64,000 nucleotides of DNA from contig JAGWYJ010000002.1 of NCBI GenBank assembly GCA_018969425.1, positions 1 to 64,000 of the forward strand, given 5' to 3'. Below, in pieces: positions 6,515-11,013 of the stretch. Under the pieces are notes generated by a model. That model searched no databases, was not told where the DNA came from, and was given only the letters and a program-made list of their open reading frames with translations. Source of the DNA: Alphaproteobacteria bacterium (GTDB lineage Bacteria; Pseudomonadota; Alphaproteobacteria; Caulobacterales; Hyphomonadaceae). The position numbers and the translations under genes are program-made. Position 1 is the first letter of the stretch, and every line of letters starts with the position of its first letter.

Positions 6515-6690
6515 ATCGGCTTCACTTGTCTGATTAAGGATTAAGACTCTTAAAGAGAGATTCTAATGTCTTCTAGTCGGTCTATAACTCGACGACCTAC
6601 GACAGGCTTATGGATACCCACAACGACATGCACATCAACCTGATGGGGGTCATCCTGGCGATCCAGCAGATCGGACACGAAAAAACATAG

Positions 6691-6705
6691 TTAACAGAGC
6701 GTTAA
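6691..6705. promoter_or_regulatory. CtrA binding box 1
   Basis: TTAACAGAGCGTTAA is an exact match to the CtrA consensus TTAA-N7-TTAA. In Caulobacter, phosphorylated CtrA bound at such boxes within Cori blocks replication initiation in swarmer cells. Its centre is 35 bp from that of box 2. Confidence 0.85.
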
Positions 6706-6725
6706 GAAGATCCTCTGCCAAACGA

Positions 6726-6740
6726 TTAAGAAGTGATTAA
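6726..6740. promoter_or_regulatory. CtrA binding box 2
   Basis: TTAAGAAGTGATTAA is an exact TTAA-N7-TTAA match. It lies 20 bp after box 1, in the most AT-rich part of the gap, so CtrA binding here could mask the unwinding region. Confidence 0.85.
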
Positions 6741-6883
6741 CAGGCTATAGGAGACGGGCCGGATCGCTCACATGTCGAAAACGCTGTGAACGAAAAGTGG
6801 TCATAAGGGCGAATGAAAAGTTGTTAACAGACGCTCCTCAGGCAGCTAACCAGAGCACTGAATAATCTATGCAGGATGGGCGT

Positions 6884-10497: not shown

Positions 10498-11013
10498 TTA
10501 CGCCGATAAGGCGGGCTCTGCTCCCGGAGACGATCTTTGGGAGGACAACTGTTGCCGGTACAGTCCAACAAAGTCGATCGGATCTATGAGAAGCGGAGGA
10601 TGACCGCCCTCTCGGGTGATTTCAGCGATCACTCTGCGGGCGAAGGGAAAGAGAAGTCGTGGACACTCCACCAGAAGCATGGGTTCGATGTCTTGCTGAC
10701 GCGCGTCCTGGAGCTGAAATATTCCCGTGTAGATCAGCTCGATGATGAACACGACAGCGTCCTGACGCTTCGCCTTGGCCGAGAGTCTGAGGTCGACGCT
10801 GAAAATCCCTTCTTGGGGAGAACCAGGATCAACTCGAACATCGATCCCCAACTCGATCTCGGGTGACTGCGTCCCCTGCTGAGCCGACAAAATACTAGGG
10901 TTTTCAAAAGAAAGGTCTTTTGCAAACTGCGCCAACACCCGGATCATGGGAGTTTTGGGCTCAGCCCCCGGCTGAGAGGTCGGTTGATCGATGTCCGGAG
11001 TGGCGTCGGTCAT
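10498..11013 (-). CDS. secB: Protein-export chaperone SecB
   Basis: A 171-residue tetrameric chaperone that holds presecretory proteins unfolded and delivers them to SecA. Hallmarks are the FAKDLSFENPSIL segment near residue 30, the central beta strands ending in LVECPRLLFPFARRVIAEIT, and PPLLIDPIDFVGLY. The disordered N-terminal tail is about 20 residues. It faces a divergently transcribed Tim44-like gene across 157 bp, which must contain both promoters. The secB-timA neighbourhood is common in alphaproteobacteria. Confidence 0.96.
   Translation of the reverse strand: MTDATPDIDQPTSQPGAEPKTPMIRVLAQFAKDLSFENPSILSAQQGTQSPEIELGIDVRVDPGSPQEGIFSVDLRLSAKAKRQDAVVFIIELIYTGIFQLQDARQQDIEPMLLVECPRLLFPFARRVIAEITREGGHPPLLIDPIDFVGLYRQQLSSQRSSPGAEPALSA

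Follow-up and report, generated by a model that had tools for sequence, protein, structure and literature searches.

A Cori-like candidate replication origin between hemE and the PPSR gene in an uncultured lineage of Hyphomonadaceae

Introduction

The closest described counterpart of the locus reported here is Cori, the chromosomal replication origin of Caulobacter crescentus. Going by passages of PMC1914354, PMC4468827, and PMC5815017, and by two Caulobacter-type origin sequences (L099 and L100), Cori is bordered by hemE and a COG1806/PPSR gene and contains exact CtrA boxes, weak DnaA sites, and an AT-rich stretch beside hemE. The same passages place parS some kilobases off, which in Caulobacter is about 8 kb away on the left arm. 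These traits are found again in the present locus, the weak DnaA sites as candidates. L099 and L100 also share with it a module made of a CtrA half-site and a G-box, 41-46 bp before the right-hand gene. These two sequences were found through a CtrA/IHF 15-mer, as 2 of the 119 searched, and are presumably akin to Caulobacter. They differ from the present locus in length (526-528 bp against 354 bp) and in their number of full CtrA boxes (five against two).

Two other systems can be likened to it. In Hyphomonas neptunium, as described in parts of PMC7200025, CtrA binds beside the chromosomal origin in ChIP-seq, with the motif TTAA-N7-TTAAC. The predicted origins of the Rickettsiales, as outlined in sections of PMC1914354, also have hemE as a border, and most of them contain sites for DnaA, CtrA, and IHF. 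They differ in that Wolbachia has a hemE/COG1253 pair and in that the genomes are mostly AT-rich. Among the literature matches listed, no title or opening of an abstract describes the origin of the present lineage.

The hemE-PPSR intergenic region

The window is the whole stretch of 64,000 nucleotides that was analysed, positions 1-64,000 of contig C60, in a genome of 3,245,086 bases and 91 contigs. The features under discussion are these:

12-27, no strand assigned: parS, exact TGTTTCACGTGAAACA, taken as the last of a 12-copy array that continues on contig C11
5486-6514, minus strand: hemE (uroporphyrinogen decarboxylase), left border; TIGR01464, 371 bits, cut-off 303
6515-6868, no strand assigned: hemE-PPSR intergenic region (354 bp), proposed chromosome origin from the skew minimum at 6640 and the CtrA boxes
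6526-6575, no strand assigned: proposed unwinding region with both GANTC sites inside; least stable duplex in the window (rank 1 of 63,951 50-mers)
6614-6622, plus strand: candidate weak DnaA box A, ATACCCACA (sister species TTACCCACA), from sequence similarity
6691-6705, plus strand: CtrA box 1, TTAACAGAGCGTTAA, exact TTAA-N7-TTAA
6692-6704, plus strand: possible IHF site, 11/13 to the consensus WATCAANNNNTTR
6726-6740, plus strand: CtrA box 2, TTAAGAAGTGATTAA, exact TTAA-N7-TTAA
6767-6802, no strand assigned: block B, 34/36 identical in the sister species
6785-6793, minus strand: candidate weak DnaA box TCGTTCACA, inside block B, from sequence similarity
6823-6842, plus strand: module C, CtrA half-site TTAAC (6824-6828) and decayed G-box CGCTCCTCA (6832-6840), 16/20 against L099 and L100
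6869-7702, plus strand: PPSR gene (pyruvate, phosphate dikinase/PEP synthase regulator), right border; NF003742, 325 bits, cut-off 225

The initial annotation proposed a Cori-like origin in the gap between hemE and the PPSR gene, and both border genes were borne out by matches above cut-off. Against a narrower model, NF049928, the PPSR protein scored 161 bits, under the cut-off of 350. Gene calls agree with the orientation described earlier, leftward on the left of the gap and mostly rightward on its right. No open reading frame of at least 80 codons lies wholly inside the gap. A 26-codon open frame was spotted by eye at about 6610-6690, where the sister species is weakly conserved (24/52 bases over 6623-6674).

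The 11 named near relatives are all metagenome assemblies, assigned to the Hyphomonadaceae or the Alphaproteobacteria. The nearest species, here called the sister (L041, which is also G002), has a PPSR protein 96% identical and a gap 73% identical to those of the window. From left to right, the gap contains the unwinding region, box A, an A-rich stretch, CtrA boxes 1 and 2, block B, and module C. The left end (6515-6586) has 68 of 72 bases in common with the sister, and the A-rich stretch (6676-6690) all 15. The stretches between the conserved elements keep 24/52, 10/20, 9/24, and 4/14 bases. Since these are poorly kept, the pair of species can be read as a natural footprint. The GANTC sites noted at 6545 and 6559 are indeed present. 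Their number is not an enrichment, with 2 found against 2.2 expected and 329 of 500 shuffles reaching 2.

CtrA boxes

The two exact CtrA boxes annotated at 6691-6705 and 6726-6740 hold up. They are the sole exact TTAA-N7-TTAA sites in the window, where 0.11 would be expected, and shuffles of the gap give 0.0045 on expectation, with 0 of 2,000 attaining two. Over all 3,245,086 bases of the genome, exact sites occur at 10 distinct places and the reversed control pattern at 8. Because this is no excess over the control, the motif has no genome-wide enrichment and is enriched just in the gap. TTAACAG was also found where it had been reported, at 6691, 6737, and 6824, in each case on the plus strand. 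With both strands counted, 0.036 would be expected, and none of 500 shuffles has three.

It had been suggested that the 35-bp spacing of the boxes and the third TTAACAG were specific to this sequence. This was wrong: the sister gap carries both CtrA boxes and the three TTAACAG at the same coordinates, with the same spacing. When one mismatch is allowed, neighbouring boxes are 35 bp apart in the window and the sister. Of the eight other congener gaps, six have a spacing of 23 bp and two have spacings of 12 + 11 bp. In the remaining family gaps, paired boxes are 28 to 37 bp apart, except in L025 (23) and L034 (99), and L038 has an extra spacing of 11. Single boxes at this level were found in L036, L039, and L040, and no box within one mismatch in L018, L024, L026, and L027. 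In the more distant gaps L037 and L054, exact boxes are 36 bp apart. Given this survey, paired CtrA boxes are common in the family, with 35 bp as one variant of the spacing.

An exact box is present in 21 of the 31 family gaps including the window (20 of the 30 others), as compared with 0.30 of 31 in shuffles. At least two exact boxes occur in 6 of the 31, and the total is 27 boxes against 0.31 expected. In other families, 11 of 16 gaps that were not picked by motif have an exact box, or 13 of 18 with L099 and L100, which were chosen for the CtrA/IHF 15-mer and were therefore excluded from the unselected 16. The gap counts omit L017, L023, and L055, where no hemE was in reach; G003 and G015, which gave no PPSR match; G007 and G013, where the match was partial; and G044, G048, G050, G051, G055, G056, and G059, which do have a PPSR match.

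The 15-mer of box 1 is the exact reverse complement of the CtrA/IHF site of the Caulobacter-type origins L099 and L100, so that the window carries this 15-mer in the opposite orientation. Eight such near-matches to the IHF consensus were found in the gap. In the sister, both TTAA halves of box 1 are kept, with 3 of the 7 spacer bases changed and 4 kept. Because the sister has another spacer, chance probably accounts for some of the agreement between box 1 and the 15-mer.

DnaA sites and the third TTAACAG

The DnaA boxes had been described as weak, and rightly so. No 9-mer in the gap lies within one mismatch of any of three consensus forms, TTATCCACA, TTGTCCACA, or TGATCCACA. Gaps with zero boxes at this level are rare without being unique to the window: they make up 2 of the 31 in the family and 4 of the other 18, and most sampled relatives keep one. 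TTGTCCACA precedes the PPSR gene by 58 to 72 bp in seven of the eight other congener gaps, and the eighth carries TTTTCCACA. In two nearby genera, the distance of TTGTCCACA from the gene is 52 and 53 bp.

Positions 6823-6842 read GTTAACAGACGCTCCTCAGG in the window and GTTAACGGATGATCCACAGG in L099 and L100. In the latter two, the G-box TGATCCACA of the module comes after the right half of a CtrA box; in the window, the left CtrA half is missing and the G-box has decayed to 6/9. The distance from module to PPSR gene is 46 bp in the window and 41 bp in L100. The alignment with L099 and L100 was made post hoc, and it was equalled in 12 and 22 of 2,000 shuffles for the window and in 16 and 11 for the sister. 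A multiple alignment had hinted that the third TTAACAG is homologous to the congeners' TTGTCCACA. This homology gained little or no support from pairwise alignments with ten relatives, in which 35 to 290 of 300 shuffles did equally well; the Caulobacter-type module outperforms it in all four post hoc comparisons (11 to 22 of 2,000). The third TTAACAG is more plausibly the half that is left of a CtrA site, next to a G-box that has decayed.

An altered DnaA specificity (CC to TA), with TTAACAG as the box recognised, was also considered and found unsupported. It is unlikely because the DNA-binding domain of DnaA is nearly identical to that of the congener G009, whose gap carries TTGTCCACA. The 28 TTRTCCACA sites in the genome, against 13 for the reversed control, argue against it as well.

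parS array

Twelve exact parS copies appear to lie within 1.6 kb in the mnmG-mnmE interval, the one at 12-27 of the window and the others at 47002-48577 of contig C11 in the same genome (G000; L173, L174), if C11 adjoins C60. The two contigs are taken as neighbours because they share a 38-nt palindrome with parS, at the end of C11 and the start of C60, and because mnmG (on C11) and mnmE (on C60) would then be adjacent on the same strand. Gene order and palindrome thus suggest the join. The copies are 94-208 bp apart, and the array would be 6.5-8.1 kb to the left of the gap. No tandem-repeat array was reported over the first nine copies. Exact parS sites in 14 congeners number 0-4 each, and the sister has four within 284 bp near a contig end. 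In Caulobacter, according to part of PMC5815017, the five strongest sites are within 5 kb; the genome of the window differs in its denser array of 12 exact copies.

GC skew

The initial annotation tied its reading to the position of the GC-skew minimum. The cumulative minimum of C60 is at 6640, inside the gap (184,000 of 185,995 bases), and it stays there when the 48.6 kb of C11 are joined on the left. Gene orientation also switches at the gap, so four-fold degenerate third positions were split by gene strand. On the left, their skew is -0.026 for plus-strand genes and -0.023 for minus-strand genes; on the right, over 6.6-60 kb, it is +0.024 and +0.121. This measure reaches its minimum behind the gene that ends at 11013, some 4 kb right of the gap. 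The raw minimum is helped by the switch in gene orientation. The four-fold switch survives but is weak, and with its minimum after 11013 it locates the origin to several kilobases at best.

The skew of relatives was taken from stretches of 40 to 80 kb (200 kb for G008). Relative to the PPSR gene, the minimum coincides with the parS cluster in G014 (-8.9 kb), G001 (-6.6 kb), G011 (-15.6 kb), and G008 (-34 kb). It lies at +22 kb in G020 and at +18 kb, the edge of the stretch, in G012. In G008, G014, G005, and G020, four-fold skew does not switch at the gap. An apparent inversion of about 33 kb was noticed by the origin of G008 (C23, about 447200-480000), with mnmE and its neighbour turned and moved from rho. 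In G014, the skew switches at parS without such an inversion.

The chromosome of G023, which is a single contig, was sampled in 20 stretches of 20 kb and in 80 kb around the gap. A local skew minimum is found 126 bp into the PPSR match. One side has a skew that is negative for the most part, the other a weakly positive one, with a second switch at about 0.5-0.85 Mb, roughly half a chromosome away. Three stretches, at 2.21, 2.72, and 0.51 Mb, run against the sign of their side, the last two just slightly.

Replication proteins

A CtrA homologue, which the initial annotation had also made a point of its reading, is encoded in the genome (NF045991, 409 bits, curated cut-off 350). ChpT is encoded as well, and a single methylase of the N6_N4_Mtase family is a candidate for CcrM. 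There is one DnaA with all three Pfam domains, which scores 316 bits against TIGR00362, under the cut-off of 344. Two candidate causes on the side of the proteins were rejected. A missing Hda does not apply, as an Hda-like protein is present on C22 (a frame of 244 aa, 49.9 bits, below the cut-off of 194.8). The residue at the place that we take to be E. coli R399 differs among members of the family, and the DnaA of B. subtilis has F there, so that a change at this place is no explanation.

It was also observed that DnaA in the family is divergent (L072:937-2436 and relatives L073-L096). What is presumably the arginine-finger position of box VII is E or D in the aligned members of the family, H in two DnaA proteins of family f2, and R in B. 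subtilis DnaA (8btg). The alignment was made without L086, L097, and L098, and L091 is partial.

Discussion

The gap at 6515-6868 is very probably the chromosomal replication origin and an orthologue of Cori. This reading draws on what is directly observed, namely the position between the two border genes, the CtrA boxes, the switch of skew with its minimum in the gap, the nearby parS, the stability minimum, and conservation in the family, along with the CtrA homologue. No DnaA box lies within one mismatch of the three consensus forms, the module at the right end is half decayed, and the parS array is dense, and in these respects the locus is unusual.

The gap could instead be just a CtrA-controlled divergent promoter, serving a small RNA comparable to CcnA or one of the border genes, hemE or the PPSR gene, with the origin at the mnmG-mnmE parS array. 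The four congeners in which skew minimum and parS cluster coincide would fit this, as would the lack of a canonical DnaA box in the gap. There is also a precedent in Caulobacter, where CcnA, as introduced in part of PMC8959179, indicates that an origin may also bear an RNA that is probably driven by CtrA. In the genome of the window itself, the skew minimum falls in the gap and not at the array, which is 55% GC, and contig C11 has no exact CtrA box. In G008, the gap, unlike the parS cluster, ranks with the most AT-rich 300-bp stretches in 200 kb, and it keeps a CtrA box and TTGTCCACA; the inversion of about 33 kb may explain its displaced skew minimum, at least in part. No Rfam RNA family was found in the window at gathering thresholds, a search that would pass over an RNA absent from Rfam. 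A promoter with the origin elsewhere is on this evidence improbable. Taking the gap as the start site leaves the parS-centred skew of some congeners unexplained.

It could also be supposed that the gap is a former origin whose DnaA boxes have decayed, replication now starting elsewhere. The count of zero boxes within one mismatch speaks for this, since most sampled relatives keep one. Two gaps of f2 score zero too (L056 and L060), f2 being the family to which the Caulobacter-type genus g19 belongs, and weak boxes are described for Cori itself in passages of PMC4468827 and PMC4285127. The CtrA half-sites, block B, and the unwinding region are all conserved against the sister. As for another start site, the sole TTRTCCACA pair within 1 kb, among the 28 sites of the genome, is inside an open reading frame; an alternative origin at the TTATCCACA pair on C6 was rejected on this ground. 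Loss of function thus seems highly improbable.

With the gap taken as a Cori-type origin, its working can be outlined by analogy. In a non-replicating cell, phosphorylated CtrA would occupy boxes 1 and 2 and exclude DnaA and IHF. Once CtrA is removed, DnaA would assemble at the candidate weak sites in box A, block B, and module C. IHF may compete at box 1, where bending might aid DnaA. DnaA would then open the unwinding region beside hemE, forks would depart both ways, and segregation would begin with the parS array, which lies 6.5-8.1 kb left of the gap.

A further and rather doubtful possibility is that in this two-species lineage the balance at the origin has shifted from initiator to repressor, so that initiation would rest on very weak DnaA sites alone, with the removal of CtrA as the main switch. 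The features that suggest it are the intact CtrA boxes, the DnaA box before the PPSR gene that is without its core, the TTAAC found there, the nearly unchanged DnaA domain, and the dense parS.

The locus is a well-supported origin of the Cori type, a new example of a kind already known. It gives a mapped origin with CtrA boxes beyond Caulobacter proper, in an uncultured lineage with metagenome assemblies as its named near relatives, and with it a sister species that is near enough to serve as a footprint of the origin.
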